44,255 nt of DNA from NCBI GenBank assembly GCA_017631315.1, contig JAGBTN010000006.1, positions 1 to 44,255 on the forward strand, read 5' to 3'. Position numbers and translations under genes: made by a program. The notes beneath the pieces are model-generated. The model had not been told where the DNA came from, did not search any database, and was given only the letters and a program-made list of their open reading frames with translations. The stretch is from Bacteroidaceae bacterium (GTDB taxonomy: Bacteria > Bacteroidota > Bacteroidia > Bacteroidales > Bacteroidaceae). Below, in pieces: positions 6,615 to 43,190 of this stretch; position 1 is the stretch's first letter; each line of letters starts with the position of its first letter.

Positions 6615-6634
6615 TTTAACTAATCCGAAACGCT

Positions 6635-16977: not shown

Positions 16978-17099
16978 CTGCAGTCCACTTGATAAAACGG
17001 GACGCGTTCGTTTGGCAAAGTTCACGTGTGAACTTGCCCGACTTCACGTGTGAAGTTTGCCAACTTCTCTGCAGAAAATGGCAAAGTTCTCTTGTGGCC
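16978..17099. repeat. 22-bp-phased palindrome array A
   Basis: Five palindromic sites have centres at 17004.5 (ACGCGT), 17026.5 (GTTCAC-GT-GTGAAC), 17048.5 (CTTCAC-GT-GTGAAG), 17070.5 (CTTCT-CTGC-AGAAA) and 17092.5 (GTTCTCTTGTGG, degenerate), exactly 22 bp apart. The 8-base linkers are TTGCCCGA, TTTGCCAA and ATGGCAAA. The head CTGCAGTCCACTTG at 16978 is also the head of array E at 43050. The first base pair of the arms changes from G..C to C..G in neighbouring sites, so symmetry is kept. It lies between an IS66 remnant and the promoter of the acyltransferase gene. Confidence 0.85.
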
Positions 17100-17179
17100 T
17101 GAATAATATATGGTTGCGACAGGGACGCGGATGCCTGTGGGGTTGTGTTTTGTTGTATGGAAAATTGCTTGCTTTTCTG

Positions 17180-17210
17180 TTGCTTTTCTTGTAGAATTGT
17201 TCTATATTTG
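17180..17210 (+). promoter_or_regulatory. Bacteroidetes-type promoter of the acyltransferase gene
   Basis: A TATATTTG -7 box at 17203-17210 lies 20 bases after a TTG (-33) at 17180-17182, matching the TTTG-N19-21-TAnnTTTG pattern. The start codon at 17231 follows 20 bases later. Confidence 0.6.
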
Positions 17211-17230
17211 CACTTTGATTTCTGCTTTTT

Positions 17231-19249
17231 ATGGCTATAGAATTGATGTTTTCGAAGGCGAACACTCAGGGCCTGAGGGGTATTGCGGCTTTGACGATTG
17301 TGTTTTTTCATGTCGTCTGGGGCTATGGTATTTCTCCTCTGTTGAATATGTGGGGTGCCTTTTTCGTGACGATCTTTATTATTTTGAGCGGTTATGGGCT
17401 TGAGGAGTCGTTCCGGATGAGGGGGCTTGATGGTTTTTGGCGCAAGCGTGTTGAGAAGGTTGTGCTTCCGGTTGCTTTTTTTGTCTGTGCCTATAATTAT
17501 CTGTTTCCATATATTCTTCCTGATGATCCGCTTTTTGAGGGGTCGGCGATGCGGAAGTGTCTTGACGAGTTGTTGTTCTTTAGTCCGCGTTTTTGGTATG
17601 TTTTTTTTATACTGAAGTGGTATTTTGTTTATTGGCTTGGCACTCGTTTTATGGGCGAAAGGTCTCGCTGGATCTTCTTTTTGATATGTGCTTTGATTTG
17701 TTTAAACATGCCTTCTCCTGCCGGACATTTAGAGGCGGAACAGTCGTTTAGTTTCCTTGCTGGCGTGTTATTATCGAGAAAGAAGGAGTGGCTTTGTTCG
17801 CTTAGGCAGAGAGCGGTGTGGCGTTGGTTGGCAATTCTGTTTTTTATTGGCTTTGTATGCCTTGTTTTGAAAACAATTTCTCCTTTCCATGACTTGAAGG
17901 GGAGTATTGCCTATAATTATTTTCTTTGTCCTTTCCGCTTGTCGATTGGCTTGGCTTTCATGCCGTTGCTCACGCTGCTTCGTCCGGACCGAGGTGCTGT
18001 GATGCAGATATTTGGGAAGTATAGTATGGAAATTTACATTGCTCATATCCCGTTTACGGCTATGGTGAAGGATGCGGAAAGTACTTTTGTCTTTTTTGCC
18101 TGCTCGGCCTTTTGCTTTTGTATGTTGTTGATGTATAGTCGTTTTGTTGCAAGAAAGATAGGCATAGCACAGGCATTGTTTATTATTGTCAATGTGCTTT
18201 TTGTGGCTAAATACTCGGCCAGGATTTCCGACACCTTGGCTTTGTGTGCCACACTCCTTGCTGTGGTGTTCTACTATGTTCTTTGCCGTTATGTGCAGTG
18301 GAAGGCGTTGGGTGGAAGGATGGCTTTTGTGCTTTGCCTGATATGTTTTGCAATGATGCCGATTCTGCAATACAGCATCGACCCATATAGCCTCCAGGTG
18401 GACAGATGGTCTGCTCTTCATTTCCCGATACAGAACCTTTTGTCGGGAGTCTATCCGTATGCTGCCAACACACATTTAGGCGGTTATGCGTCGCCGTTCC
18501 CCGTCTGGCAGATTCTGCATGTTCCGTTCTATCTTATGGGCAATGTTGGTCTGTCGTTCTTTTTTGCGTTCGCTCTGTTCTTGTGGAGTATGTTTAAGGT
18601 GCAGGGCAAAGCGAAGGCGACGATGGCGGGGCTGTTGATGTCTTCTTCGGTTGCTGTGTGGTATGAGGTTGCCGTCAGGAGTGATCTTCTGACGAACATG
18701 TTGTTGCTGGCTGCAATGATTAACCTTGTCCTGCATCGTATGAGTAGGGAATGGGTAGATGCGAAGTGTTGGTGGATGGCTTGTGCGGTAGGTCTGTTGG
18801 TAAGCACCAGGATGATTGTACTTGTCCCGCTTGCCATATTGCTGTTCCCCTTTCTTGTAGGGATGAAATGGCACAGGCAGATTTCTGTCGTCCTGCTGAC
18901 GATGCTGGTCTTCTTGTTGACCTTTGCTCCTTTTGCGCTCTGGGACTGGCAATCATTCTATCACTTCGAAATGAACCCTTGGACATTGCAGACGAGACAA
19001 GGGAACATTTCCGATTTCGTCGTTTTCCTCCCGCTTGTGATATGTTTGGCGTTCAATCATAAAATGAATCCCCGCCGCTATTATCGAAACTCAGCCTTTG
19101 CCCTTGCAGCTTTCGTGGCGGTAACGTTCGTGCATAATATGTATTCTGAGGAGAACTGGAACCTTTTCTCATCTACTTTTGACATTACTTATATCAGCAC
19201 CTGCCTGCCATTCTGTTTCATGTCGATGGTCGATAGTGAGGACGCTTAG
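17231..19249 (+). CDS. Acyltransferase-3 domain fused to a second polytopic membrane domain
   Basis: This 672-residue integral membrane protein has many helices. Residues 10-325 follow the acyltransferase family 3 pattern (GLRGIAALTIVFFHV near the N-terminus, with the conserved R and H, then FFVTIFIILSGYGL), which transfers acyl groups such as acetyl to sugars. Residues 340-665 form a second membrane domain with features of GT-C glycosyltransferases or polymerase-like proteins (YSIDPYSLQVDRWSALHFPI, a VYPY motif, SDLLTNMLLLAA, and FEMNPWTLQTRQGN in a loop). I chose the ATG at 17231 because it follows the promoter directly and precedes the first helix. It is the first gene of the polysaccharide locus. 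The second domain's activity is unknown, and fusion rather than two genes is the unusual part. Confidence 0.8.
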   Translation: MAIELMFSKANTQGLRGIAALTIVFFHVVWGYGISPLLNMWGAFFVTIFIILSGYGLEESFRMRGLDGFWRKRVEKVVLPVAFFVCAYNYLFPYILPDDPLFEGSAMRKCLDELLFFSPRFWYVFFILKWYFVYWLGTRFMGERSRWIFFLICALICLNMPSPAGHLEAEQSFSFLAGVLLSRKKEWLCSLRQRAVWRWLAILFFIGFVCLVLKTISPFHDLKGSIAYNYFLCPFRLSIGLAFMPLLTLLRPDRGAVMQIFGKYSMEIYIAHIPFTAMVKDAESTFVFFACSAFCFCMLLMYSRFVARKIGIAQALFIIVNVLFVAKYSARISDTLALCATLLAVVFYYVLCRYVQWKALGGRMAFVLCLICFAMMPILQYSIDPYSLQVDRWSALHFPIQNLLSGVYPYAANTHLGGYASPFPVWQILHVPFYLMGNVGLSFFFAFALFLWSMFKVQGKAKATMAGLLMSSSVAVWYEVAVRSDLLTNMLLLAAMINLVLHRMSREWVDAKCWWMACAVGLLVSTRMIVLVPLAILLFPFLVGMKWHRQISVVLLTMLVFLLTFAPFALWDWQSFYHFEMNPWTLQTRQGNISDFVVFLPLVICLAFNHKMNPRRYYRNSAFALAAFVAVTFVHNMYSEENWNLFSSTFDITYISTCLPFCFMSMVDSEDA

Positions 19250-19299
19250 CACCCATTTTTGCATTGATTAACATTTTGTGGTCCCAATGCAATAAATCA

Positions 19300-19331
19300 T
19301 TTGTCTAATTCGTTATATTATCGTACCTTTG
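19300..19331 (+). promoter_or_regulatory. Bacteroidetes-type promoter of the GT2/Wzi/WecA genes
   Basis: TTTG at 19300-19303 is followed after 20 bases by TACCTTTG at 19324-19331, a near-consensus sigma-70 promoter for this phylum. It lies 81 bases upstream of the GT2 start and would leave a leader of about 75 bases. Confidence 0.75.
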
Positions 19332-19412
19332 TACGATATTTGACATTTATACAATACGCAAGAATCTATAAGTCGGAAAGGCTTTTGAGTCTGGCAGTTC
19401 AAAAGAAGTAGA

Positions 19413-20282
19413 ATGATAACGGCTTCGATAGTTACATACAATAATAACCTTTTAGACCTGGAGGGTATTCTTCGCAGTTTGCTTATTTCGCCGGTGCAGA
19501 AGGTGTGGGTCGTAGATCATAGCGACACATTCATCCGTTTGGAAGGCGAACTGCAAGAGTACAAACGTAAGGACGAAGAGTTCCTGAAGCACGAAGGAAG
19601 AGGCTTTAGGTTAGAATACATCAAACAGGCCAATAAAGGGTATGGCAGCGGACACAATGTGGCATTGCGCAAGGCAATAGACGAAGGAAGCCAGTATCAT
19701 CTTGTGGTGAACCCCGATGTGTGGTTCGGTGCCGAAGTGATACCAGCCTTATGGCGACTGATGGAAGAACAAGAAGACGTGGCACTGGCTATGCCCAAGG
19801 TCCTTTTCCTGAATGGTTCCGTACAATGTCTGGCCAAACTTTTGCCAACCCCCGTTGACCTCTTCTGTCGCTTCTTTATGCCGGCAAAACTTATTGTCAG
19901 GAGAAACAATAAGTTTGAATTACGACATTCCGGCTATGACAGAGAAATGAACGTTCCGTTCCTTTCCGGATGCTTCATGTTCTTGAGAGTCAGTGCGCTG
20001 AAGAGTGAAGGAATCTTCGATGAGCGTTTCTTTATGTACATGGAAGACGTAGATCTCACACGTCGTCTTCATGCAAAGCACAAGACACTCTTCTATCCTT
20101 CAGTAAGCATATACCACAGGTTCAGCCGTCTGTCATATCATAAATGGAAACTCTCGTTGGCACACATGGCCAGCGTCGTGAAATACTTTAACAAATGGGG
20201 GTGGATATACGACAGCAGCAGAAGACGCTTCAACAAGACACTCCTAAAAGAACTAAAACAGCAAACGAAGAATGAGGATTAA
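19413..20282 (+). CDS. Glycosyltransferase family 2
   Basis: This 289-residue cytoplasmic GT-A enzyme transfers a sugar from a nucleotide donor to a lipid-linked acceptor. The N-terminus ASIVTYNNN is the nucleotide-binding strand, VVNPDVWFGA near residues 97-106 carries the metal-binding Asp in the rhamnosyltransferase-like form NPD, and EDVDLTRRL near 211-219 is the catalytic ED region. The acceptor loop SGCFMFLRVSAL fits the WcaA/rhamnosyltransferase branch. The C-terminal 70 residues are basic, as in enzymes that contact the inner membrane. The next gene (wzi-like) overlaps its 3' end by 11 bases, so the two are coupled. The sugar specificity cannot be read from the sequence. Confidence 0.9.
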   Translation: MITASIVTYNNNLLDLEGILRSLLISPVQKVWVVDHSDTFIRLEGELQEYKRKDEEFLKHEGRGFRLEYIKQANKGYGSGHNVALRKAIDEGSQYHLVVNPDVWFGAEVIPALWRLMEEQEDVALAMPKVLFLNGSVQCLAKLLPTPVDLFCRFFMPAKLIVRRNNKFELRHSGYDREMNVPFLSGCFMFLRVSALKSEGIFDERFFMYMEDVDLTRRLHAKHKTLFYPSVSIYHRFSRLSYHKWKLSLAHMASVVKYFNKWGWIYDSSRRRFNKTLLKELKQQTKNED

Positions 20283-21783
20283 ACAATTCATAACTATAAT
20301 TCTCGGCGTACTACTTGTTCCACTTAATATCTGGTCTCAAGCAGACCGTCTCGGCGAAGACATACAATATGGCTTCAGCCTGCGAGGGACAAGCGGCGGT
20401 GGAGACAATGCACCATTCTGGTTTACTAATAATAAGTATGGCCTTGGCCCAGTAGAAAAGCATACCGTTCAAGCACGTGCCTATATCTCAAGAGCAGCCG
20501 AAGTGGACTCTCTTCGTGCCTGGCGCATAGGCTATGGAGCAGATATGGCTGCAGGTTACGGCAACGAGAGTGAGTTCTGTGTTCAACAACTCTATCTCGA
20601 TGTGCAATGGCAGATGCTCCGACTCTCAATCGGACAAAAGCAAAGGGCATCAGAACTCAAGAACGAAGAACTTTCAACCGGCGGCATGACACTTGGCATC
20701 AATGCACGTCCATTGCCACAGCTAAGGCTGGAGTTGCCAGAATTCTGGGCAATTCCCGGCACGAAAGAATGGTTCGCAGTCAAGGCCCATATTGCCTATG
20801 GCATTTATACAGACAATAGATGGCAAAGAAACTGGAATGCCGGCACAAAGAATTTCTATACGCAGAATAGCCTATATCATTCAAAAGCATTGCTCATGAG
20901 GATAGGAAACGAAAAGAGGTTCCCCCTATCCTTGACCTTCGGTCTTGAGATGGCTTGCCAATTCGGCGGAAAGGGATACAATCAAATCGGCTATCGGGGC
21001 GAACAATTTGAAGGTGAGGTAAAACTCGGAGGAAATATCTTCAACGCATTCTTCCCAAGTGGAGGCGATGTAAACGACGATTCTTTTACAAATGCAGCAG
21101 GCAATCATGTCGGTTCTTGGCATGCTCGTTTGGACTGGAAGGGAAAGGGATGGAACGTAGGAGCCTATATGGACCATCTATTTGAGGACCATAGTCAATT
21201 GGCAATGCAATATGGCTTTTGGAAGGATATGCTCTTAGGCATTGAAGTAAATCTTCCAGAAAATCGATATGTAAGCACCCTTGTCTACGAACACATAGGA
21301 ACAATGAATCAGAGCGGTCCTATCTATCATGACGCAACAGTCGAGAATCCTTTGCAGATAAGTGCCAGTGATTCCTACTATAACAATCACGTTTATGGCT
21401 CTTGGCAACATGGAGGCTTCGTCATGGGCAATCCTCTTATTCCATCGCCGATGTATAATTCTTATTTAGGTATGCCTGGTTCGTTGAACAATTTTCACAA
21501 TCGTATTAACGCTCATCACATAGGAATAAAAGGTAACCCAACTCCTTATCTTTCGTGGCGAACATTATATACTTACGAGAAGAACCTAGGTTCTTATGAC
21601 AGGCCGGTAAAGGATCCCCTTAAAGGACATTTCCTTCTTGTAGAGGCTACATATAAACCAAAGAAACTTAGAGGTTTGGGATTTAGTGCAGCATATGGCC
21701 TTAACCATGGAAGCCTGCTCGGAAATGCCAATGCTGCGATGTTAACAGTGTCGTTCGATGGTTGGATTCGTAAATACAACTAA
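20272..21783 (+). CDS. Wzi-family capsule assembly outer-membrane protein
   Basis: This 503-residue protein has a signal peptide (about residues 1-23, ending NIWSQ). The mature part follows the Bacteroidetes Wzi-like family: GFSLRGTSGGGDNAPFWFTN at its start, then RLSIGQKQRASELKNEELST, LRLELPEFW and many amphipathic strands to the end. Wzi is an 18-stranded barrel that binds capsular polysaccharide at the cell surface. The gene overlaps the GT2 gene by 11 bases and precedes a small lipoprotein gene, so it belongs to the envelope-polysaccharide operon. The family and length match; a direct role in capsule here is inferred from context. Confidence 0.85.
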   Translation: MRIKQFITIILGVLLVPLNIWSQADRLGEDIQYGFSLRGTSGGGDNAPFWFTNNKYGLGPVEKHTVQARAYISRAAEVDSLRAWRIGYGADMAAGYGNESEFCVQQLYLDVQWQMLRLSIGQKQRASELKNEELSTGGMTLGINARPLPQLRLELPEFWAIPGTKEWFAVKAHIAYGIYTDNRWQRNWNAGTKNFYTQNSLYHSKALLMRIGNEKRFPLSLTFGLEMACQFGGKGYNQIGYRGEQFEGEVKLGGNIFNAFFPSGGDVNDDSFTNAAGNHVGSWHARLDWKGKGWNVGAYMDHLFEDHSQLAMQYGFWKDMLLGIEVNLPENRYVSTLVYEHIGTMNQSGPIYHDATVENPLQISASDSYYNNHVYGSWQHGGFVMGNPLIPSPMYNSYLGMPGSLNNFHNRINAHHIGIKGNPTPYLSWRTLYTYEKNLGSYDRPVKDPLKGHFLLVEATYKPKKLRGLGFSAAYGLNHGSLLGNANAAMLTVSFDGWIRKYN

Positions 21784-21831
21784 TCTATTAGAAACGTCAA
21801 TAATAAACAGGATTTTAGAAATATACGCATC

Positions 21832-22263
21832 GTGAAAAGACTTTTTTATATATTGATTTTCTTTGTTGCAACACTGTCCATTACAAGTTGTAACAAGTGG
21901 GATTGCAACGGCGACCTAGATGGGATGTGGCAGTTGACGGAATGGAGAGATAAGGAAAATAACCTTATAGCAACTAAAGATGATATGATATTCTATAGTT
22001 TCCAGTTACAAATGGCAAGTTTCCGTAAGTTAGGCGAAGAGAATTATTATATCAGTTCTATGTTGGAGGTTGGCTCAGAGCAGATACGTATCTATAAACC
22101 TGCTATATATAGTGGCGATGGACACGACAAGGAGCAACCGATGTCTATTCTTTCTATTGTGGGTGTGCCAGAAGATGGTATCTTCCATATTGATGTTCTG
22201 ACGGGAGGCACGATGAAACTGAAGACAAATACCCAAGAAACTTTGGTCTTTAGGAAGTATTAA
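21832..22263 (+). CDS. Small lipocalin-like lipoprotein
   Basis: This 143-residue protein starts with GTG at 21832 and carries a lipoprotein signal with lipobox SITSC (Cys20). The mature domain reads DGMWQLTEW...NLIATKDDMIFYSFQLQMA and ends TLVFRKY, the layout of small Bacteroidetes lipocalin-like lipoproteins in which a W-x-L-T strand opens an eight-stranded barrel. No ligand is known. It lies 48 bases after the Wzi-like gene and 25 bases before the WecA-type gene, in the same direction. The GTG start is supported because the following residues form an ideal signal peptide and no in-frame ATG is nearby. Confidence 0.75.
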   Translation: MKRLFYILIFFVATLSITSCNKWDCNGDLDGMWQLTEWRDKENNLIATKDDMIFYSFQLQMASFRKLGEENYYISSMLEVGSEQIRIYKPAIYSGDGHDKEQPMSILSIVGVPEDGIFHIDVLTGGTMKLKTNTQETLVFRKY

Positions 22264-22288
22264 GAATAACGAAAAGTGTTCGAAGATA

Positions 22289-23368: not shown

Positions 23369-23389
23369 GAGGAAGGCTTTGCCTATAAT

Positions 23390-25324: not shown

Positions 25325-25354
25325 GATATTGTAGAATATAAAATGCTTTTGCAA

Positions 25355-25385
25355 CAAAGATAGCAATAATTTGTATACTTTGCAA
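25355..25385 (-). promoter_or_regulatory. Promoter of the NDP-sugar dehydratase gene
   Basis: On the minus strand a TATCTTTG box (25355-25362) lies 20 bases after a TTG (25383-25385). It fixes the translation start at 25324, because the longer reading frame would begin inside the promoter. Confidence 0.75.
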
Positions 25386-25461
25386 GAAATGTGTGAGGTA
25401 AATGCCGAAGGAGGACTTGTATTTCCTTTTATGCCCAGACTAAAAAGTCAAAGGTGTTGTT

Positions 25462-26763
25462 TCAGAATTGGGCTTTCCAGGTTGAGCTTATGACCCATCT
25501 GTTTGCCAGGAAATGGGTGTTGAAGGTGTGGAGGTAGTCGATGTTGAAGCCTACGGTCTGGTTGTGGCTTTGCAGCATGTCGATGACGATGCCGGTTCCG
25601 CCTACGGGTCTTAGTTGTGGTTTGATGTGGAGGAGTGGTTCGCCTACTTGTCGGTTTTCGCTGACGCGGTGGAAGGTGACGCCTTCGTTGTAGCGTACTC
25701 CCCATAGTGTCCGTATGCCGACGTGTATGTCTTTCATGATGGGGTATGTCCATCCGGCTGCGATGTTTCCGTGGTATAGGTGTATGTGTTCGCCCCAGGC
25801 GGTGATGGCGTATTCTGGGACTTCCAGTTTTGCCTGCGACATGGTGTAGCGTGCGATGGCCGAGAGGTAGCATTGGTCGGTGATGAACCATTCGGCTTCC
25901 ACACCGGTTGTTATGGAGGCGCTGCTTCGGATGGTGGCGCCTGTCATGTCGAATCCCTCTTCGGCTTGTGCGAAGTCTGCTGCGCTGAGGCTTCGTCCGC
26001 TTGTTTCTGTTCCGGAGATGAGGCGTATGCCGGAGGCTTCTTCCAGTCGTGGTTTCACCCATGCTTCCCAGTTCCCGTCGGCATTGAGGAAGGGGTTGAT
26101 GCCTTTTCTGCCTATGATGCGGTCGGTGAGGAAGTATGCCAGGTGTGTGCTGACGACGCCGATGCCGGCTCCCATGAAGATGTCATTCATCCAGTGGGCG
26201 TTGTGTCCGATGCGGAGCATTTGTGTTCCTGTGGCTGCAGCGTAGCCTCCTACGGTTATCCAGGGGCTGATGTGGCCGTATTCGCGGCTGAGAATGGTGG
26301 CGCCCATGTATGCGAGCGAGGCGTGCATGGAGGGGAAACTGTTGTTGTTCGAGCCGTCGGGCCGCTCGGCGTTTACGCTCCATTTCAGTGTTTGCGTGAG
26401 TCCGATGGTCAGACCTGTTGCCATCGCATTGGCAACCAGCATGCGTTGTGTGGTGCTTCGCGACTTGACGCCGAAGGCTTTCATGGCCCATGTTGCCGCC
26501 AATGGCGAGAGGGCGAGCCCGTAGTCCTCCCAGCGATGGTTGTTCTCGCGGTAGGGGGCGGGCATTCTGTTGAAGTTGCGGTGGGTGAAGGTCTGTATGA
26601 TGCCTCGTATGGGCATGAAGATGCCGTCGCGGCTGAAGCGCATCTCGTTGCGCACGAGGCTGTCTTCCACAACGAGTTGCTGCAGCAGAAGGGCCAGCGA
26701 GTCCTGGCATCTGCCTGCAGAGGCAAAGCCTGTCAGCAACAGGGCGAGAAGGAGTCTTTTCAT
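25462..26763 (-). CDS. PAP2 phosphatase with barrel-like C-terminal domain
   Basis: This 433-residue protein has a signal peptide (about residues 1-19). The PAP2 catalytic set is complete: K127-x6-R134-P135, P144-S-M-H147 and R184-x5-H190-x3-D194. Such enzymes remove phosphate from lipid substrates such as undecaprenyl diphosphate, phosphatidylglycerophosphate or lipid A. Residues 235-433 are not part of PAP2 domains. They are rich in alternating strands (AEWFITDQCYLSAIARYTMS, IHLYHGNIAAGWTYP, VGIRTLWGVRYNEG) and end in WVISSTWKAQF with a terminal Phe, which suggests an outer-membrane beta-barrel. It follows prs, with palindrome array B in the gap of 123 bases. Whether the enzyme works at the outer membrane is inference. 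Confidence 0.85.
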   Translation of the reverse strand: MKRLLLALLLTGFASAGRCQDSLALLLQQLVVEDSLVRNEMRFSRDGIFMPIRGIIQTFTHRNFNRMPAPYRENNHRWEDYGLALSPLAATWAMKAFGVKSRSTTQRMLVANAMATGLTIGLTQTLKWSVNAERPDGSNNNSFPSMHASLAYMGATILSREYGHISPWITVGGYAAATGTQMLRIGHNAHWMNDIFMGAGIGVVSTHLAYFLTDRIIGRKGINPFLNADGNWEAWVKPRLEEASGIRLISGTETSGRSLSAADFAQAEEGFDMTGATIRSSASITTGVEAEWFITDQCYLSAIARYTMSQAKLEVPEYAITAWGEHIHLYHGNIAAGWTYPIMKDIHVGIRTLWGVRYNEGVTFHRVSENRQVGEPLLHIKPQLRPVGGTGIVIDMLQSHNQTVGFNIDYLHTFNTHFLANRWVISSTWKAQF

Positions 26764-26785
26764 AGGCTATGGCATGTAATGAAAG

Positions 26786-26865
26786 AATGGTTAACCTTTC
26801 TGCCCGAATAGGTTAACCATTCCTGTCTGAAAGGTTAACCATTATTGTCTGAAAGGTTAACCATT
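26786..26865. repeat. 22-bp-phased palindrome array B
   Basis: Four copies of the perfect palindrome GGTTAACC have centres at 26792.5, 26814.5, 26836.5 and 26858.5, exactly 22 bp apart. Each sits in a 14-base block of the form AAAGGTTAACCATT, separated by 8-base linkers (CTGCCCGA, CCTGTCTG, ATTGTCTG). It fills the gap between the 3' end of prs and the 5' end of the PAP2 gene. Confidence 0.9.
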
Positions 26866-26886
26866 ATTTTTGGCATGAAAAGGGGC

Positions 26887-27825
26887 TTAGCAGAGATACT
26901 GGTCGGAGATGCTCTCGTTGCACTCTACACACTGGATGGTTTGTGCCAGAAGCGAAGCGATAGACAACTGCTTCACCTTGCTGCATCCGCCGGAGTAGGG
27001 GATGCTGTCCGTGAAGACCATCTCCTCGATGGCAGAGGCTTCTACGCGCTCATTGGCAGGACCGCTCATGATGCCGTGGCTGGCAATGGCACGAACGCTG
27101 CGGGCACCGTTCGCCTTCATCAGGTCGGCAGCCTTCGTAATGGTGCCTGCGGTGTCCACCATGTCGTCGATGAGAATGACATCGGCATCGGCAACATCGC
27201 CAATGATGTCCATCGTAGCCACCTCGTTGGCCTTCTTTCTCGTCTTGTTGCAAAGCACAAGCGGACAGTTCAGGTATTTGCTGTAGGTGCTGGCACGCTT
27301 GGAACCGCCCACGTCGGGAGTGGCAATCACCAGGTTCTTCAGGTTGAGGCTCTGGATGTAGGGCAGCAGAACGCTCGAAGCATACAGATGGTCTACGGGC
27401 ACATTGAAGAAGCCCTGCTCCTGGTCGGCATGGAGATCCATCGTAATGAGGCGTGTGATGCCGGCCACGCTGAGCATGTCGGCCACCAACTTTGCAGCAA
27501 TGCTGACACGGGGCTTGCTCTTTCTGTCCTGACGAGCCCAGCCGAAGTAGGGAACAACGGCATTGATGGTGCGTGCCGAAGCGCGCTTGGCAGCATCAAT
27601 CATCAAGAGCAACTCCATCAGATTGTCAGCACTGGGGAATGTGCTCTGCACCAGAAATACATCCACACCGCGAATGGATTCCTCAAAACAAACCTCAAAC
27701 TCACCGTCGCTGAACTGGGTGATAGAAAGGTTGCCCAGTTCGCAGCCCAGATTTTGGCAGATCTTCTCTGCCAGATAACGTGACTTGGTTCCGGAAAATA
27801 CCTTAAATGTCTTCTTTTCTTCCAT
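26887..27825 (-). CDS. prs: Ribose-phosphate pyrophosphokinase
   Basis: This 312-residue cytoplasmic enzyme makes PRPP from ribose 5-phosphate and ATP for nucleotide, histidine and tryptophan synthesis. Motifs: KVFSGTKSRYLAEKI near the start, FSDGEFEV, NAVVPYFGWARQDRK (ATP loop), the metal-binding TMDLHADQEQGFF, and the PRPP-binding loop VILIDDMVDTAGT. Its length and end-to-end similarity are normal for class I enzymes. It lies 44 bases downstream of the ThiE/TenI-like gene and upstream of array B and PAP2. The ATG at 27825 is the natural start because MEEKKTFKVFSG fits family N-termini. Confidence 0.97.
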   Translation of the reverse strand: MEEKKTFKVFSGTKSRYLAEKICQNLGCELGNLSITQFSDGEFEVCFEESIRGVDVFLVQSTFPSADNLMELLLMIDAAKRASARTINAVVPYFGWARQDRKSKPRVSIAAKLVADMLSVAGITRLITMDLHADQEQGFFNVPVDHLYASSVLLPYIQSLNLKNLVIATPDVGGSKRASTYSKYLNCPLVLCNKTRKKANEVATMDIIGDVADADVILIDDMVDTAGTITKAADLMKANGARSVRAIASHGIMSGPANERVEASAIEEMVFTDSIPYSGGCSKVKQLSIASLLAQTIQCVECNESISDQYLC

Positions 27826-27869
27826 GGTTTATGTCTTATTATATCTGATTGTATCAAATGATTTCCGAA

Positions 27870-28481: not shown

Positions 28482-28510
28482 CCTGAATCTCGGTGTGATT
28501 TTTCTGACTG

Positions 28511-28518
28511 CAAAGGTA
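28511..28518 (-). promoter_or_regulatory. -7 box for the ThiE-like/prs run
   Basis: TACCTTTG on the minus strand lies 29 bases before the ATG at 28481. No good -33 TTTG is present at the usual distance, so the promoter may be weaker or activator-dependent. Confidence 0.55.
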
Positions 28519-28558
28519 TGAAAAAGAAATAAGAAAGAAGAATTTATCATTAAGAAAT

Positions 28559-28589
28559 TTTGCCGTTACCATGCTAATTCCTATCTTTG
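28559..28589 (+). promoter_or_regulatory. Promoter of the GH43 gene
   Basis: TTTG at 28559-28562 and TATCTTTG at 28582-28589 are 19 bases apart, a near-consensus Bacteroidetes promoter. It is 35 bases before the ATG at 28625 and is divergent from the promoter of the ThiE-like gene. Confidence 0.75.
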
Positions 28590-28624
28590 CATGCAAAAGA
28601 ATACAATTAGACATATAATAAGGT

Positions 28625-31681: not shown

Positions 31682-31812
31682 GAACCCTTTCCGCTGAATC
31701 CTAACAGACAGAGGCTGGCTCGGTCGCAACATTTTGGTAAAAAGAGAAAGCCTTGATATGCAATCTGTTAAGGGTGAAAAATAAAAACCCTGTGCCTAAT
31801 TGGAAAACATAA

Positions 31813-31878
31813 CACGTTAAGTTGACCAATTAGGCACGTTAAGTTGCCCCGAAAGGTTAACCTATTTTGCCAATTAGG
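31813..31878. repeat. Degenerate 22-bp array C
   Basis: Three 22-base units start at 31813, 31835 and 31857. The first two share CACGTTAAGTTG, and units 1 and 3 share CCAATTAGG. TTAA centres lie at 31818.5 and 31840.5 (22 bp apart), but the perfect GGTTAACC at 31855-31862 is 18 bp further. It is placed between the GH43 and GH38 genes and looks like a decayed or rearranged member of the family. Confidence 0.55.
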
Positions 31879-31925
31879 CAGTAGATGTTTTCGGGCATGA
31901 TATTAGGCATGAAAAATTGTAAGGA

Positions 31926-35741: not shown

Positions 35742-35745
35742 AAAA

Positions 35746-35825
35746 ACAGGTTAAGCATTATTCGAATAATCCTTAACCATTCCGCCTCGAAAGGTTAACC
35801 TTTCCGGCAATAATGCTTAACCATT
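35746..35825. repeat. 22-bp-phased palindrome array D
   Basis: Four TTAA-centred sites lie at 35752.5 (AGGTTAAGC), 35774.5 (TCCTTAACC), 35796.5 (AAAGGTTAACCTTT, perfect 14-bp palindrome) and 35818.5 (TGCTTAACC), exactly 22 bp apart. Linkers are ATTCGAAT, CCGCCTCG and CCGGCAAT. It begins 5 bases after the GH38 stop and ends just before a terminator, between convergent genes. Confidence 0.85.
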
Positions 35826-35856
35826 TTTGGGGACTTCCCCATAGAGGTAAAGAAAA

Positions 35857-35899
35857 CACCTCCCTGTCTCTGTCGAACGGAGTCGGGGAGGTGCTTTTT
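35857..35899 (+). terminator. Bidirectional rho-independent terminator
   Basis: CACCTCCC (35857-35864) pairs with GGGAGGTG (35886-35893), with a smaller CTC/GAG stem inside, followed by CTTTTT on the plus strand and preceded by AAAGAAAA, which gives TTTTCTTT on the minus strand. It separates the convergent GH38 and flavodiiron genes and probably serves both. Confidence 0.8.
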
Positions 35900-35925
35900 G
35901 TGGGTTAAGGTCTGTGGCCTTCTGC

Positions 35926-37134: not shown

Positions 37135-37193
37135 TATATATTATTTATATTTTAAGCATCTTTCATTCCCCCTAAAGGCAGTTAGGGGGTCTA
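37074..37193. repeat. Inverted pair of 27-bp CCCCC-rich repeats across the speA/flavodiiron gap
   Basis: The left copy (37074-37100) begins TAGACCCCC and ends CCTTTAGGGGGA. The right copy (37167-37193) is its reverse complement at 23 of 27 positions. The left copy lies inside the flavodiiron coding sequence, and the right copy supplies the speA stop codon (TAG). The pair could form a long hairpin with a loop of 66 bases that contains the flavodiiron start codon. Confidence 0.75.
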
Positions 37194-39083
37194 CTCGAGG
37201 TAAGTATATCCGTAGAGACCGGCACGATAGTTGCTGATGAACTCCTTGCCTTCGTTGGGCGTAATCTTGCCGTCCTTGATGGCCTTGCTCACCCAAATCT
37301 CCAGGCGACGAACAAGCTTCTTCGGGTCGTACTGCACATATTCCAGCACATCGGCAACCGTCTCGCCGTCGATAACCTGCTCAATCGTGTAGTTCTCCTT
37401 GTCCACACTGATGTGCACGGCGTTCGTGTCGCCGAAAAGATTATGCATGTTGCCAAGAATCTCCTGGTAGGCACCTACAAGAAAGACACCAATATAGTAG
37501 TGCTCACCATGGCGAACCGGATGCAAAGGAATGTAGTTCGTTTGCTGGCCACCATTGACATAAGCCGAAATCTTACCGTCGCTGTCGCAGGTGATGTCTT
37601 GCAAGGTGGCACTGCGGGTGGGGTGCTCTTCCAGACGAGCAATAGGCATGATGGGGAAAAGCTGGTCGATACCCCACGAGTCTGGCATGCTTTGGAAGAG
37701 CGAGAAGTTGCAGAAGTACTTGTCCGCCATCTGCTTGTCGAGGTTGCGAAGCTCGTCGGGAACATGCTTCTGGTGGTGCGCCAGTTCTGCCACCTCGTGG
37801 CTGATAGCCCAATACAGAGACTCAATCTGTGCCCTTGTCTTGAGGTCGATAATGCCATGGCGGAAGAGGTCGAGCGCCTCCTCACGGATGTCTTCGGCAT
37901 CATGCCAGTCCTCAAGAAGAGAACGCTGTGAGAGTTTGTCCCATATCTCAGTCAAATCATGCACAAGTTTATGGTCTTCGGGGCCGGGAACAAAGTCCTC
38001 CGGCATTTGAGGCGCCGAGACACTTTCCAAGACATCTATGATGAGGACACTGTGATGTGCCGTCAGCGAGCGGCCGCCCTCTGTGATAAGATTGGGATGA
38101 GGTATTTCATTCTTGTCGGCAGCCTCTACGAAAGTATAGACACAGTCGTTGACATATTCCTGAATGCTGTAGTTCACGCTGCTTTCACTATTGCTGCTTC
38201 GTGTGCCGTCATAGTCGACTCCCAGTCCGCCACCGCAATCCACAAACTCGATGTCAAAGCCCATGGCATGAAGTTGTACGTAGTACTGGGCAGCTTCGCG
38301 AAGGGCAGTGCTGATGCGACGTATCTTATTGATTTGACTGCCAATGTGGAAATGTATAAGACGCAAACAGTCGCGTAATCCAAGTTCATCAAGCATCTGC
38401 AAAGCCATCAACAGCTCGGACGAGTTGAGGCCAAACTTGGAGGCGTCACCACCGCTCTCACTCCACTTGCCGCTGCCGTTGCTGGCAAGCTTGATGCGTA
38501 TGCCAAGATTGGGGTGTACACCAAGCTTCTTTGCCGTTTCTGCAATAATAGCCAACTCGGGCAGCTTTTCGATAACGAGGAAGACACGTTTCCCCATCTT
38601 CTGTGCCAGCAAGGCAAGTTCGATGAAGTTCTGGTCTTTGTGGCCATTACAGATGATGAGGCTGTCGCTATCCATGTTCGTGGCAAGCACAGCATGAAGT
38701 TCGGGCTTTGAACCGGCTTCGAGGCCAAGATTATAGCGTTTGCCGTGGCTGATGATTTCTTCCACGACGGGACGCATTTGGTTGACCTTGATAGGGAAGA
38801 TGATGAAGTGTTCGCCTTTGTAGTTATACTCCTTTGTCGCTTTGCGGAAGCACTCGTCTGTCTTTTCGATGCGATTGTCCAAAATATCGGGAAAGCGAAG
38901 CAGTACGGGAGCCGTTACGTGTCGTGTTGCAAGTTGGTCGACGACTTCTTTGAGGTCAACCTGCACGCTGTTCTTTTTAGGCGTGACATAGACATGTCCC
39001 TTTTCGTTGATGCCAAAGTAATTGACTCCCCAGCCTTTGATGTTGTAGAGCTCTTCGGAGTCTTCAATGCGCCATTTCTTCAT
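37191..39083 (-). CDS. speA: Biosynthetic arginine decarboxylase
   Basis: This 630-residue PLP enzyme converts arginine to agmatine for polyamine synthesis. The PLP lysine is Lys99 in IIFPIKVNQMRPV. Other family blocks include GLEAGSKPELHAVLA, the LIICNGHKDQNFI region, LGIRIKLASNGSGKW, LIHFHIGSQI, VDCGGGLGVDYDGT and PNLITEGGRS. The length of about 630 residues matches bacterial SpeA. It starts 32 bases after aroK and is followed after 56 bases by the flavodiiron gene. The stop codon lies in a 27-bp repeat copy, so the final residues YTYLE may have been set by repeat insertion. Confidence 0.97.
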   Translation of the reverse strand: MKKWRIEDSEELYNIKGWGVNYFGINEKGHVYVTPKKNSVQVDLKEVVDQLATRHVTAPVLLRFPDILDNRIEKTDECFRKATKEYNYKGEHFIIFPIKVNQMRPVVEEIISHGKRYNLGLEAGSKPELHAVLATNMDSDSLIICNGHKDQNFIELALLAQKMGKRVFLVIEKLPELAIIAETAKKLGVHPNLGIRIKLASNGSGKWSESGGDASKFGLNSSELLMALQMLDELGLRDCLRLIHFHIGSQINKIRRISTALREAAQYYVQLHAMGFDIEFVDCGGGLGVDYDGTRSSNSESSVNYSIQEYVNDCVYTFVEAADKNEIPHPNLITEGGRSLTAHHSVLIIDVLESVSAPQMPEDFVPGPEDHKLVHDLTEIWDKLSQRSLLEDWHDAEDIREEALDLFRHGIIDLKTRAQIESLYWAISHEVAELAHHQKHVPDELRNLDKQMADKYFCNFSLFQSMPDSWGIDQLFPIMPIARLEEHPTRSATLQDITCDSDGKISAYVNGGQQTNYIPLHPVRHGEHYYIGVFLVGAYQEILGNMHNLFGDTNAVHISVDKENYTIEQVIDGETVADVLEYVQYDPKKLVRRLEIWVSKAIKDGKITPNEGKEFISNYRAGLYGYTYLE

Positions 39084-39115
39084 CTTTTGTTCAATTCAGA
39101 ATTATCAATTCGTTA

Positions 39116-39643
39116 TTACAGTTCCAGTTCTTTGCGGATTAGCTGAACGCTGGTTTGCAGTTTGTCGTAGTTGTCGAGCAGGGTTACATCGACGATGTGC
39201 TTTGCCTGCATATAGAAGTGTTCTCGTTGCGAGAGTGATGTTCGGATGTATTCGAGCAGTTCTTCCGGGCTTTTGCCTTTGATGAGCGGACGTTCTACTC
39301 TGCCCATCTGAAGGTGTTGTGCAAGGACTTCCGGTGTTGCTTTCAGATAGACACTTTCGCTTACGCTTCGAATGTATTCCATGTTGTCGAAGAAGCATGG
39401 AGTACCGCCTCCACAACTCAGTACGATGTCCTCGAATTCTGCTGCCTCGTGGAGCATGTTGCGCTCCAACTCGCGGAATCCGTCTTCGCCTCTTTCTGCA
39501 AAGAGTTGTGCTACGGAACGATGGTAACGCATCTCAATGTACCAGTCGAGGTCGTAGAAGGTGCGTCCGAGTGCAAGCGCGAGTTGTCTGCCGACAGTTG
39601 TCTTGCCCGAACCCATGTAGCCAATCAGGACAATACTTTTCAT
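39116..39643 (-). CDS. aroK: Shikimate kinase
   Basis: This 175-residue cytoplasmic kinase phosphorylates shikimate at the 3-OH in the aromatic amino acid pathway. The Walker A motif is GYMGSGKT (residues 8-15), followed by the shikimate-binding DLDWYIE and FRELERNML, the SCGGGTP loop, and the lid GRVERPLIKG. The start at 39643 overlaps the stop of topA by four bases in an ATGA arrangement, which suggests translational coupling; longer in-frame starts lie within topA and are rejected. It is followed by speA after 32 bases. Confidence 0.95.
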   Translation of the reverse strand: MKSIVLIGYMGSGKTTVGRQLALALGRTFYDLDWYIEMRYHRSVAQLFAERGEDGFRELERNMLHEAAEFEDIVLSCGGGTPCFFDNMEYIRSVSESVYLKATPEVLAQHLQMGRVERPLIKGKSPEELLEYIRTSLSQREHFYMQAKHIVDVTLLDNYDKLQTSVQLIRKELEL

Positions 39644-41982
39644 TTGCGCGTGAAGCGTCGTTTTGTTGTGTTTGTTGTCTTGTCGCTTTGTTCGTTTACG
39701 ATTTGCATGCACTCTTCGTAGGACAGTTCTTTTGCTTTCTCGTGCAATGCTTTAGGCAGACGATAGTTGTTTCCTTTGTATGCGATGTATGGTCCGTAGC
39801 GTCCGTTCAGTACTTCCATTTCTGCATCTTCGCTGAAGGTTTTGAGGTGTCGTTCGGACTCTTCCACATGTTTGCGATGCATCATGATGACGGCTTGCTC
39901 GAAGGTTATCTCCATGGGGTCTGTGCCTTTCGGGATGGAGACGTATGAGCCTTTGTGTGCGATGTACGGGCCGTACTTGCCTGCTCCGATGGTGATTGGT
40001 TCGCCTTCGTACATGCCGAGTTTTCGTGGCAAACGGAAGAGTTCGAGGGCTTCGGCGAGTGTAATGGTTTCGAGTTTCTGGCCTGCTGCAAGTTGTGCGA
40101 AGCGTGGCTTTTGTTTGACGTCAGTGCTTCCTAACTGTGCTACGGGGCCAAAACGACCTATCTTTACGGTGACGGGTGCTCCTGTGGCGGGGTCGTTGCC
40201 AAGCAGTCGTTCGCCAACCTTGTGTTCGGTGTGTGTGTTGATAGACTTCTCCACTTGTGGTTCGAAGTCTTCATAGAATTCTTTTACGATGCCTTCCCAC
40301 GAGATTTTTCCTTCGGCTATTTCGTCGAACTTCTTTTCTATGTCGGCAGTGAAGTTGTAGTCCATGATTTCGGGGAAGTTCTCCTTGAGGAAGTCGTTGA
40401 CAACGATGCCTGTGTCTGTGGGGAGGAGTTTGCCTCTCTCTTGTCCGACGATGGTGCTATGTGACTCTTCGGCGATTTCGTTTCCGGCGAGTGTGATGGT
40501 ACGGTAGTTGCGTTCTTGTCCTGGTTTGTCGCCTTTCTCAACGTATTCGCGTTGTTGGATGGTGGTTATGGTGGTGGCATAGGTGCTTGGACGTCCGATG
40601 CCGAGTTCTTCGAGCTTGCGTACAAGGCTTGCTTCGTTGTAGCGGATGGGGCGTTGCGAGAAGCGTTGTGTGGCAATGATTTGTTCGCGGTCGAGACTGT
40701 CGCCGAGTTTCATGACGGGCAGTGTGCTGAGGTTTTCGTTGTCGCCGTCTCCTTCGGAATAGTTGTCGGTGTGCGTGTCGTTGTAAACGCGCAGGAAACC
40801 GTCGAACTTTATGATTTCTCCGTCGGCCTGGAAGGTTTCTTCTTTGCCGTCGATGCTGATGACGACTTGGGTGCGTTCCATTTCTGCGTCGGCTATCTGG
40901 CTGGCGATGGTGCGTTTCCAGATGAGGTCGTAGAGGCGTCGTTCTTGCTGGTTGCCTTCTATCTGCTGTTGGTCCATGTAGGTGGGTCGGATGGCTTCGT
41001 GTGCTTCCTGTGCGCCTTTCGAACTGGTGTGGTATTGTCGTGTCTTGACGTATTCTTTGCCCATCTGTTCTGTGATGACGCTTTTGCTTGCAGCGAGGCA
41101 GAGTTTGCTGAGGTTGACGCTGTCCGTACGCATGTATGTGATGCGTCCGCTTTCATAGAGGTGCTGTGCCACCATCATGGTTTGTGCCACGGTGAAGCCA
41201 AGTTTGTGTGCTGCTTCCTGCTGGAGTGTGCTGGTGGTGAAGGGAGGTGGTGGTGTGCGTTTGACGGGTTTGGTTGTGATGTCCTGCACCGTGAAACGGC
41301 TTTCCTTGCAACTCTCCAGGAAGGCTTTCGCCTCTTCTTCTGTCGAGAAGCGGCGACTCAGTTCGGCTTTTACTTCGCTGCCTTCGTTGTTGCGGAAGAT
41401 GGCAGTGATGCGGTAGTTTTCTTCTTGGCGGAAGTTTTGTATCTCGCGTTCACGTTCTACGATGAGGCGAACGGCAACGCTCTGCACGCGACCGGCCGAG
41501 AGACTGGGTTTCACTTTTCGCCAAAGCACAGGGCTGAGTTTGAAGCCAACGATGCGGTCGAGTACTCGACGTGCCTGTTGTGCGTTTACCAGGTTGAGGT
41601 CTATTTGCCGAGGGTGTTCTATGGCGTCCAGGATGGCAGACTTCGTGATTTCGTGGAAGACGATGCGACGTGTCTTTTCCGGTTTCAGGCCGAGCACTTC
41701 GTAGAGGTGCCAGCTGATGGCTTCTCCTTCGCGGTCTTCATCGGATGCGAGCCACACGGTGTGTGCCTCTTCTGCTTGGCTCTTCAGTTGTGCCACGACC
41801 TTTACTTTGTCGGCGGGAACTTCGTATTGTGGTTCGAAGGTCTTCTCGTCAACGCTGAACGATTTCTTTTTCAAGTCGCGTATGTGTCCGTAACTTGACA
41901 GGACTTTGTATTTGTCACCCAGGAATTTCTCGATGGTTTTTGCCTTTGCAGGGCTCTCCACGATTACAAGATTCTCCTTCAT
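39640..41982 (-). CDS. topA: DNA topoisomerase I
   Basis: This 780-residue type IA topoisomerase relaxes negative supercoils. The TOPRIM domain has Glu9 in VIVESPAKAKTI and the DEDREGE motif (residues 81-87). The active-site Tyr283 lies in GRITYMRTDS. The C-terminus has Toprim C-terminal repeats (GRFGPVAQLG, GKYGPYIAHKG, GRYGPYIAYKG) in place of zinc fingers, as in other Bacteroidetes enzymes, and a basic tail KRRFTRK. I chose the ATG at 41982, since a -7 box at 42013-42020 excludes the ATG at 42015. It is the first gene of the topA-aroK-speA-flavodiiron run. Confidence 0.97.
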   Translation of the reverse strand: MKENLVIVESPAKAKTIEKFLGDKYKVLSSYGHIRDLKKKSFSVDEKTFEPQYEVPADKVKVVAQLKSQAEEAHTVWLASDEDREGEAISWHLYEVLGLKPEKTRRIVFHEITKSAILDAIEHPRQIDLNLVNAQQARRVLDRIVGFKLSPVLWRKVKPSLSAGRVQSVAVRLIVEREREIQNFRQEENYRITAIFRNNEGSEVKAELSRRFSTEEEAKAFLESCKESRFTVQDITTKPVKRTPPPPFTTSTLQQEAAHKLGFTVAQTMMVAQHLYESGRITYMRTDSVNLSKLCLAASKSVITEQMGKEYVKTRQYHTSSKGAQEAHEAIRPTYMDQQQIEGNQQERRLYDLIWKRTIASQIADAEMERTQVVISIDGKEETFQADGEIIKFDGFLRVYNDTHTDNYSEGDGDNENLSTLPVMKLGDSLDREQIIATQRFSQRPIRYNEASLVRKLEELGIGRPSTYATTITTIQQREYVEKGDKPGQERNYRTITLAGNEIAEESHSTIVGQERGKLLPTDTGIVVNDFLKENFPEIMDYNFTADIEKKFDEIAEGKISWEGIVKEFYEDFEPQVEKSINTHTEHKVGERLLGNDPATGAPVTVKIGRFGPVAQLGSTDVKQKPRFAQLAAGQKLETITLAEALELFRLPRKLGMYEGEPITIGAGKYGPYIAHKGSYVSIPKGTDPMEITFEQAVIMMHRKHVEESERHLKTFSEDAEMEVLNGRYGPYIAYKGNNYRLPKALHEKAKELSYEECMQIVNEQSDKTTNTTKRRFTRK

Positions 41983-42012
41983 TGTCGATTCTGTGTTTTT
42001 TGATTTTGGGCG

Positions 42013-42020
42013 CAAAGATA
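42013..42020 (-). promoter_or_regulatory. -7 box of topA
   Basis: TATCTTTG on the minus strand lies 30 bases before the ATG at 41982. The usual -33 TTTG is not at the right distance; the nearest TTTG is only about 11 bases upstream. The box decides the topA start codon. Confidence 0.6.
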
Positions 42021-42328
42021 AGCATTTTTTCCAAACTACACATTATTTATATGCAAAAATCAGTCCTTTGCTAAAACTTCTCCTCCTTGCTGCCTTCTTT
42101 ACTCCTTCTTTTTATATGTGCGCCATGCAGACGCACGCGAGGCACTTTCTCTCCGAGAAAAGGTCGATAATACGAATCTATTTCGGCAATGCCAGGGGCA
42201 GAAAGCGAATGGATATAGTCGAACGTTATGGAACATGCAAATGTCATTCCATCATAACCTGGAATTCAAAAAGAGCAGAAAGAAGAAAAAAAACGATTTG
42301 GAGTAATCGGAATTCAATCAAAAAGTTA
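42021..42328. other. Intergenic stretch between divergent topA and the cohesin-like gene
   Basis: No gene is supported here. A plus-strand open frame (41906-42370) overlaps the start of topA and shows no recognisable family, so it is not called. The stretch changes from AT-rich near topA to mixed composition at 42110-42280. Apart from the short inverted segment TTTCTCTCCGAGAAA near 42150, I see no structure in it. Confidence 0.5.
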
Positions 42329-42336
42329 TATCTTTG
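42329..42336 (+). promoter_or_regulatory. -7 box of the cohesin-like gene
   Basis: TATCTTTG lies 30 bases before the ATG at 42367. TTTG at 42297-42300 is 28 bases upstream, too far for a normal -33 element. The box rules out the in-frame TTG at 42334 as a start. Confidence 0.55.
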
Positions 42337-42366
42337 CAAGGCAAAGTATGTAAACAGGAAACCACT

Positions 42367-42990
42367 ATGAAGAAGATACACCTCCTTGTTCTTGCACTTT
42401 TTGCCTGCATCGCAGGTTGGGCGGAGGACAACAACAAGTTTTATTTCACCGATGCTGTCATCAAGCCTGGCGAAACGGCAAACATCGAACTCTGCATGAG
42501 AAACGAAGCCACAGACCTCTCTTGCCTCGAAGCAGAGATACAACTGCCCGAAGGACTCTCTGTCGTTAAGGATGCAGAAGGGAATCCCCAGGCAACACTC
42601 TATCGCAATCGCATAGCAGATCACGAAATTCTTGCCAATGTCCTTGCAGACGGCAAATTGAAACTCCTTGTCAGCTCCGTAAGCGGTCAGGCGTTAGACA
42701 ACGTCGAAGGCCCGCTGCTCAGTTTTTGTGTTCGGGCAGACGATACCGCTCCTGTAGGAGAATGTGCAGTGGAGACCGTAGGCGAATCGTTGCTCGTAAA
42801 TGCCAGCGCAGAAGCCTTCTATAGTGTTGGTGTAAAGGGCATTGTGCAGATAACCGATGATGCAACATCCATCGAAAGCCTTCAGGAGCAAAGTCGAAAC
42901 GGCCTTATTTACAACACCTCTGGCCAGCGCCTGAACAAGAAGCAGAAGGGCATCAACATCATCAACGGCAGAAAAGAACTCCACAAGTAG
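42367..42990 (+). CDS. Small cohesin-like secreted protein with T9SS tail
   Basis: This 208-residue protein has a signal peptide (about residues 1-19, ending AGWA). Residues 22-155 have the layout of a cohesin-like beta-sandwich: FYFTDAVIKPGETANIELCM at the start, then LEAEIQLPEGLSVV and KLKLLVSSVSG, and FCVRADDTAPVGE. The C-terminus is a T9SS sorting tail (LIYNTSGQRLNKKQKGINII then NGRKELHK). It is thus likely exported to the surface, but with no dockerin partner visible here, its binding target is unknown. The start at 42367 follows the promoter and gives the signal peptide. Palindrome array E follows its stop codon. Confidence 0.8.
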   Translation: MKKIHLLVLALFACIAGWAEDNNKFYFTDAVIKPGETANIELCMRNEATDLSCLEAEIQLPEGLSVVKDAEGNPQATLYRNRIADHEILANVLADGKLKLLVSSVSGQALDNVEGPLLSFCVRADDTAPVGECAVETVGESLLVNASAEAFYSVGVKGIVQITDDATSIESLQEQSRNGLIYNTSGQRLNKKQKGINIINGRKELHK

Positions 42991-43049
42991 GCAACCACCT
43001 TACGCTACTCCCTTGTTATGAGCGATGCCAAGGTGAATTGCAAAACATC

Positions 43050-43190
43050 CTGCAGTCCACTTGGCAAAATGGACGCGTCCGTTCTGCCAAGTCCACGCGT
43101 CCGCTGAAAAAACTACTCCAGTGTAATTGTCCAACTTCTCTGCAGAAGTAGGGGAACTTCTCTGCAGAAGTCGGCGAAGTTCTCTTGAGC
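43050..43190. repeat. 22-bp-phased palindrome array E
   Basis: After the head CTGCAGTCCACTTG (43050-43063, shared with array A) come sites centred at 43075.5 (GGACGCGTCC), 43097.5 (CCACGCGTCC), a degenerate site near 43119.5, then 43141.5 and 43163.5 (both CTTCTCTGCAGAAG) and 43185.5 (GTTCTCTTGAGC). All lie on one 22-bp grid. Linkers include TAGGGGAA and TCGGCGAA. The array lies between the convergent cohesin-like gene and the small conserved gene at 43291. Confidence 0.85.

Follow-up and report, generated by a model that had tools for sequence, protein, structure and literature searches.

What are the short palindromes that recur between the genes of a Bacteroidaceae bacterium, and what, if anything, reads them? 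In a 44,255-nucleotide stretch of this genome (contig JAGBTN010000006.1; "the window"), a reading made from the letters alone (the sequence-only reading) had noted five intergenic loci at which such palindromes lie exactly 22 bp from centre to centre, and the unit centres bear out both the positions and the grids. We find that these arrays are real and that many species of the genus carry them. As dispersed palindromic repeats they belong to a known kind; what seems new is a fixed scaffold combined with a swapped core. On comparative sequence evidence, we lean slightly towards the reading that the arrays are dispersed cooperative binding platforms for a sequence-specific dimeric protein. The literature covered, with subscription journals and preprints outside its scope, held no description of such arrays in Prevotella or its relatives beyond the repeats of Porphyromonas gingivalis discussed below.

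Abundance and phasing in the host genome

The host genome (G000) and that of its sister species (G023) are drafts, 87% and 72% complete, and all genomes compared are incomplete drafts. Genes were called with a home-made open reading frame (ORF) caller, and P values are uncorrected throughout. Allowing one mismatch, the palindromic core GGTTAACC forms 270 pairs at 22 bp in G000, and the reversed pattern used as a control forms none. Exact GGTTAACC occurs at 113 sites in a 584-kb sample (27 stretches and the window): 105 are in arrays, 4 in genes and 4 elsewhere between genes, the GGTTAACC unit at 31.8 kb of the window being counted among these last. All 88 GGTTAACC pairs within 150 bp of each other fall on multiples of 22 bp (22 bp, 40 pairs; 44 bp, 26; 66 bp, 20; 88 bp, 2). 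Three control palindromic 8-mers have 6, 7 and 8 sites in the same 584 kb and form no pairs. A motif-free palindrome scan of 400 kb (20 G000 stretches, some picked near matches, so that densities are biased upward) gave spacing peaks at 22 (44 pairs), 44 (28), 66 (20), 11 (15) and 33 bp (11), against 5, 3 and 1 pairs at 22 bp in three first-order Markov shuffles. The phasing is thus far above that of shuffled sequence, and the proposal of a genome-wide, non-coding, phased system stands; it would fit the binding of one dimer per two helical turns.

Among 46 G000 arrays (including one spurious two-unit match within a gene, L035 4370), four units are found in 30, five in 9, three in 4, two in 2 and six in 1; six of the nine five-unit calls take in an end unit with three core mismatches. 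The typical GGTTAACC element has four units and inverted ends, one A-rich and the other T-rich. Its half-site approximates [GTA]AA[AT]GGTT, inner linkers are C/A-rich and outer ends A-rich. The linker middles resemble TGGCCA, the word TG..CA being present in 23 of 90 linkers (background, 8%). A profile over 88 flanks also revealed weak units, SSYN|NRSS, one grid step outside the arrays.

Conservation in the sister species

Across 101 genomes (61 of the genus and 40 of the order), G023 follows G000 with 238 GGTTAACC pairs; two congeners (G015 and G019) have one each and the other 97 genomes, 57 of them congeners, have none. The reversed pattern, also absent from G023, occurs one to three times in six other genomes. 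Conservation in a close relative, which the sequence-only reading had set against chance and local duplication, is therefore present. Twenty-two of 26 sister arrays were matched with a G000 array (one being the counterpart of the spurious L035 4370 match), and in the alignments of matched arrays 82 of 87 sister units coincide with a G000 unit. In one shared stretch, 12 of 13 G000 arrays have a sister counterpart and the 13th would fall past the end of the sister sample; no array gain or loss was seen there.

Divergence between the two species is concentrated outside the cores. It is 1–7% at the four core positions, 4% at positions -6 and -7, 14–15% at -5 and -8, 10–29% in linkers and 12–20% in the first 66 bp outside the arrays. 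About 24 of 656 core cells differ versus about 95 of 483 linker cells, roughly fivefold less (p 2e-18; four core and three linker positions in the 22 matched arrays, with counts rebuilt from rounded rates).

Other cores on the same layout

Congeners carry 22-bp arrays with other cores, namely AAGACGCGCGTCTT (G001), TACGACC|GGTCATA (G015), TTCCCAGCCTGGGAA (G032) and ACATACATGTATGT (G034). Pairs of GACCGGTC number 37 in G015 and none in the 60 other genomes of the genus (reversed control, 1, in G041). CCGCRYGCGG pairs number 418 in G026, 404 in G051, 7 in G035, 3 in G000, 2 in G012 and 1 each in G005 and G052, with none in 54 others (reversed control, 4, in G034). These CCGC arrays also end in A-rich and T-rich tracts, and their modal unit number is four when steps of 21–23 bp are allowed (11/21 arrays in G051, 11/23 in G026) and, in G026, under a strict 22-bp step (9/19). 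Against the same background, the TG..CA linker word is found in 32 of 39 (G026) and 27 of 34 (G051) CCGC linkers and in 3 of 4 linkers of the TTAACNNGTTAA family. Flank profiles of the GGTTAACC and CCGC families are in register (r 0.52; shifted mean 0.01, maximum 0.30). The sequence-only reading had the core differing by locus; this holds between species and between families, but the core does not vary freely inside one family.

Over 971 kb of congener sequence (186 loci from 54 species, with some loci selected for matches), 22 bp is the foremost tandem-repeat period (35 arrays), and 15 of the 54 species have a 22-bp array at that threshold; a weaker class of 14-bp period follows (10 regions). 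In the window genome itself, L024 13226 holds ACATACATGTACGT-type units on a 22-bp grid that resemble the ACATACATGTATGT family of G034 (L120), so several families coexist in one genome.

A contig search for a three-unit pattern returned 30 stretches in five organisms: the Bacteroidaceae metagenome-assembled genomes (MAGs) RGIG4268 (roe deer colon) and RGIG6660 (sheep rumen), and Tannerella, Prevotellaceae and Chitinophagaceae MAGs. The Chitinophagaceae array (L283, ~6484–6703) repeats GGGTTAACCC about ten times at 22-bp steps and lies between convergent ORFs. In the order sample, three genomes of other families (L166, L161 and L165) hold tandem repeats of 21, 23 and 22 bp, respectively, whose units are partly palindromic by eye; the step size, near two helical turns, may differ between lineages. 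Viral contigs yielded 20 stretches with a two-unit pattern; L323 and L324 have a third adjoining unit with one mismatch, and L314 has a third unit two steps further.

Placement at gene ends

Among arrays of three or more units with a neighbour on each side, the 41 in G000 occupy 22 tandem, 14 convergent and 5 divergent gene gaps; the 22 sister arrays occupy 13, 6 and 3. None of either set lies within a gene. The convergent-to-divergent ratio is 14:5 for the G000 arrays and 52:66 for gaps of 100 bp or longer (p 0.024), and in tandem gaps the array is closer to the 3' end of the upstream gene in 18 of 22 cases (p 0.004; sister, 10 of 13).

The place can be kept while the core changes. At the 3' end of prs (ribose-phosphate pyrophosphokinase) in 30 species, a 22-bp repeat (identity >=0.69) is the best period in 10, with different cores, and the period is 23 bp in two more (G048 and G041); strong 21-, 16- and 18-bp repeats occupy the site in G052, G046 and G019, respectively. 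The prs, ODP, Band7, SpoT and nadA loci were picked because of arrays in the window genome, and L075 and L076 because of matches. Synteny at nadA-polA was uninformative, polA being next after nadA in only 2 of 30 loci.

Copying elements or binding sites

A possible, though clearly less probable, explanation is that the arrays are dispersed selfish elements, akin to miniature inverted-repeat transposable elements (MITEs) or repetitive extragenic palindromes (REPs), that spread through a transposase or through conversion between copies. The palindromes would then be what the copying enzyme recognises, and insertions would be tolerated at 3' ends. High copy number, intergenic location, species-specific families, several families per genome and patchy sharing all suit this explanation, as do the fixed modal length and the inverted A/T-rich ends. 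At the prs 3' end, G026 and G051 (L092 and L094) carry one core family in opposite polarity by eye, as after a flip or replacement. Decay would be expected to strike all parts of an inserted copy alike, but the linkers have diverged far more than the cores. The stable array content of the shared stretch also speaks against copying, and no target-site duplication was seen by eye, in alignments that contain no empty site. A copying enzyme of the Y1 type (PF01797) has no match in either G000 or G023, at their 87% and 72% completeness.

The nearest described repeat comes from P. gingivalis, a species of the same order as the host. As excerpted, the BrickBuilt report (PMC4596501) describes a minisatellite/MITE of imperfect 23-nt tandem repeats at 19 dispersed intergenic loci, with 1 to 22.8 copies per element between a leader and a tail that have insertion sequence-like terminal repeats. 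The same excerpts mention stem-loops and dyad symmetry, report no match of the internal repeats outside the species, and contain no fixed four-palindrome grid with interchangeable cores. Compared by description rather than by sequence, our arrays are likewise intergenic and dispersed. Unlike BrickBuilt, they keep a 22-bp step throughout, their flanks hold weak grid units only, and they number at least about 90, taking three of the 270 pairs per perfect four-unit array.

REPs and bacterial interspersed mosaic elements (BIMEs) are, in the portions of the sources consulted, clustered imperfect palindromes of several families, intergenic and in many cases downstream of genes (PMC3733652, PMC6006769). 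The arrays share all of these traits, but their palindromes are short and their step is exactly 22 bp. REP tags are rare: GTAG/CTAC is present in 1 and CGTC/GACG in 2 of 187 units, against 11% and 14% of random 22-mers. PF01797 matches occur in 22 of the 61 genomes of the genus, 17 above the cut-off. A 22-bp array lies about 180–790 bp from three of the six best Y1 loci, on one side; none of the six has arrays on both sides. In G012 (L099 and L171), 22-bp arrays are long, with more than four units, and one has a Y1 gene of IS200 size about 180 bp away. With tags rare and the Y1 match absent, we reject a system of REPs and REP-associated tyrosine transposases (REP/RAYT) for the draft genomes G000 and G023.

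Half-sites and hairpins

If a protein reads the arrays, each half of a palindrome should behave as a site in its own right. The compensatory arm change noted by the sequence-only reading, from GTTCAC..GTGAAC to CTTCAC..GTGAAG, is present at 17.0 kb, but compensation is not the rule: in 258 units of the GGTTAACC family, arm identity is below chance within units (z -4.4) and also across the linker (z -6.2). Core changes are often one-sided, with 54 GCTT and 32 CCTT halves facing an intact partner in 286 units and a single symmetric change (GCTTAAGC). In the CCGC family, whose core is unrelated to GGTTAACC, CG-CG combinations across the linker number 1 of 37 and 6 of 62 in the two species sampled, where 7.8 and 14.1 would be expected (p 7e-6 and 3e-5); CG-type half-sites also avoid each other within units (p 3e-5 and 0.047). 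Strong and weak half-sites thus alternate in both families. One-sided changes with non-covarying arms are what sequence-specific half-site recognition predicts. The idea that symmetry is selected while sequence is not finds no support: within a single genome, conservation lies in the sequence of the half-sites, and covariation between arms is absent.

We consider it unlikely that the arrays act as RNA or DNA hairpins, either as intrinsic terminators or as stabilisers of mRNA 3' ends, with unit 1 pairing with unit 4 and unit 2 with unit 3, and working in both directions through the A-rich and T-rich ends. The 3'-end position and the A/T-rich borders would suit this role, and at the prs site several array-less species have ordinary terminators by eye. 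Predicted RNA folds are strong, with a mean z of -4.55 (72 folds, 36 arrays) versus -1.21 in 131 controls, because adjoining palindromes pair with each other. A missing loop, the earlier argument against hairpins, is thus incomplete as an argument. In 52 four-unit arrays from G000 and its sister, outer half-site positions of the hairpin partners show no compensatory changes (z -0.5 for L1 with R4, -1.2 for R1 with L4, -3.0 for L2 with R3 and -4.2 for R2 with L3), and the second core family avoids matching half-sites. Neither array polarity nor the counts of A/T border tracts are related to transcription direction, so of the features predicted for an intrinsic terminator, the arrays have the strong fold but no positive covariation and no strand bias. 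A core common to the whole genome would also be unnecessary for hairpins. We therefore set aside compensatory arm evolution as a rule and regard a hairpin function as improbable; non-covarying arms and the alternation of strong and weak halves favour protein half-sites.

Finally, functionless minisatellites made by slippage are very improbable. In their favour, period-22 repeats are common in the genus, the excerpted P. gingivalis report has repeats of 22–23 nt (PMC4596501), and period-22 consensus units are only modestly more palindromic than shuffled versions of themselves (5.37 vs 4.55, against 4.69 vs 4.37 for other periods; p <=0.05 in 6/35 vs 5/52 units). Against them, divergence in the linkers is about that of the adjoining DNA and is lower in the cores, most arrays have four units or close to it, a single array can hold different cores on a common grid, and the Chitinophagaceae units are joined by unrelated linkers.

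A proposed protein-bound address array

The reading that we favour, a cooperative platform for a dimeric protein, would work as follows. One dimer would bind each 22-bp unit in double-stranded DNA, so that usually four dimers would sit cooperatively on about one face of the helix. The constant scaffold (the 22-bp step, the usual four units, the A-rich and T-rich borders, the TGGCCA-like linker middles and the on-grid flank units) would present an 8–10 bp core that serves as a species-specific address. Placed mostly after genes, the arrays would most likely act as protein roadblocks that insulate or end transcription units, or would organise the chromosome there; given a protein-bound array, a roadblock or insulator role at 3' ends is an even bet. 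When the binding protein alters its specificity or is replaced, the arrays of a lineage would switch core together.

Several observations weigh against this model. No binding protein was identified; of nine genes scanned beside divergent arrays, seven belong to metabolic, redox, envelope or tRNA-synthetase families and two have no family, and array neighbours in other families of the phylum include, by eye, no common DNA-binding gene. (These neighbours include a transporter and a cysteine desulfurase at L283, a 1000-aa ORF at L300 and a 349-aa ORF at L289.) Swapping several hundred units together would be difficult for a host regulator, less so for a copying element, and conversion between arrays, instead of selection, could account for part of the low core divergence. 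The strong predicted folds count here too, and doubly changed cores are overall no rarer than chance (23 observed, 20.7 expected). At the SpoT locus of G034 and G005, the array comes after an apparent intrinsic terminator (by eye) and so is not needed as a terminator there. The scaffold also has exceptions: the TG..CA word is weak among GACCGGTC linkers (3 of 16), and under a strict 22-bp step the modal CCGC array in G051 has three units, not four (10 of 17).

Two types of known protein offer comparisons. Octamers of the Lrp/AsnC type bind phased operators, and a set of four dimers, with palindromic sites spaced by about two turns, would match the four-unit arrays. Species with different cores supplied 20 rows for the AsnC-family ortholog compared, and its recognition helix reads SRAA(V/I)HQRV in 18 of them (the rows for G000 and G056 are mis-called ORFs, and sister G023 was read in place of the window species). 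A helix constant across congeners whose cores differ leads us to reject this protein as the specificity factor. Noc, SlmA and MatP are chromosome-wide systems in which one protein has tens of dispersed palindromic sites, a likeness to our arrays. To our knowledge, those sites are mostly single rather than phased in fours, and their cores are not swapped in this way between close relatives, unlike the arrays.

Arrays in the window

Coordinates of the window arrays are collected in Table 1. The 26.8-kb array, with an A-rich left and a T-rich right border, lies between two minus-strand genes just beyond the 3' end of prs. That at 35.8 kb has the one-sided core variants GGTTAAGC, CCTTAACC, GGTTAACC and GCTTAACC as its units and is flanked by convergent genes for a glycosyl hydrolase of family 38 and an ODP-family flavoprotein. 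The locus at 31813–31878, described earlier as a degenerate version, does keep the 22-bp grid, but is better described as two units with one intact CGTTAAG half each, followed by a GGTTAACC unit.

Two arrays belong to a second family. The 17.0-kb array has arms AACTTC/GAAGTT around the middles ACGCGT, CACGTG and CTCTGCAG on an exact 22-bp grid, and begins with CTGCAGTCCACTTG and finishes with AAGTTCTCTTG; the 43.1-kb element has identical start and end sequences. The latter is a dispersed repeat, a 24-bp stretch near its start giving 33 strand-wise matches with up to three mismatches, some places being counted on both strands. A Mutator-family transposase fragment (PF00872; 16306–16623, minus strand) lies about 370 bp before the 17.0-kb element. 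Rfam 15 gave no match above the gathering score on either strand of the window.

Table 1. Arrays and flank units in the window. Unit centres were taken directly from the sequence; flank units rest on the profile over 88 flanks, and each single instance is weak.
Feature	Position	Strand	Unit centres	Remark
Second-family array	16994..17103	.	17004.5, 17026.5, 17048.5, 17070.5, 17092.5	last unit weak
Weak flank unit F (SSYN|NRSS)	26760..26781	.		one grid step before the 26.8-kb array
Four-unit GGTTAACC array	26782..26869	.	26792.5, 26814.5, 26836.5, 26858.5	
Weak flank unit F	26870..26891	.		one grid step past the 26.8-kb array, overlapping final prs bases
Composite array	31804..31869	.	31814.5, 31836.5, 31858.5	one 22-bp grid; CGTTAAG half in first two, GGTTAACC in third
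Four-unit GGTTAACC-family array	35742..35829	.	35752.5, 35774.5, 35796.5, 35818.5	
Second-family array	43065..43196	.	43075.5 to 43185.5	six units

Implications

Among the repeats in the literature covered, the arrays are unusual in that close relatives differ in the core but share step, unit number and, at prs at least, location. We tentatively suggest that they may represent a phylum-wide class of address arrays, in which hundreds of gene-end sites are rewritten when a DNA-binding protein changes specificity; by analogy, this class could be a bacterial counterpart of the fast site turnover of centromeres or PRDM9. Read by a transposase, the arrays would reveal a new way to keep repeats exactly in phase with the helix. 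If their reader is a DNA-binding protein, a common gut lineage would possess an abundant chromosome-level DNA-binding system of which the literature covered holds no description, and its many core families would be a natural experiment in which a specificity and hundreds of its sites change together.

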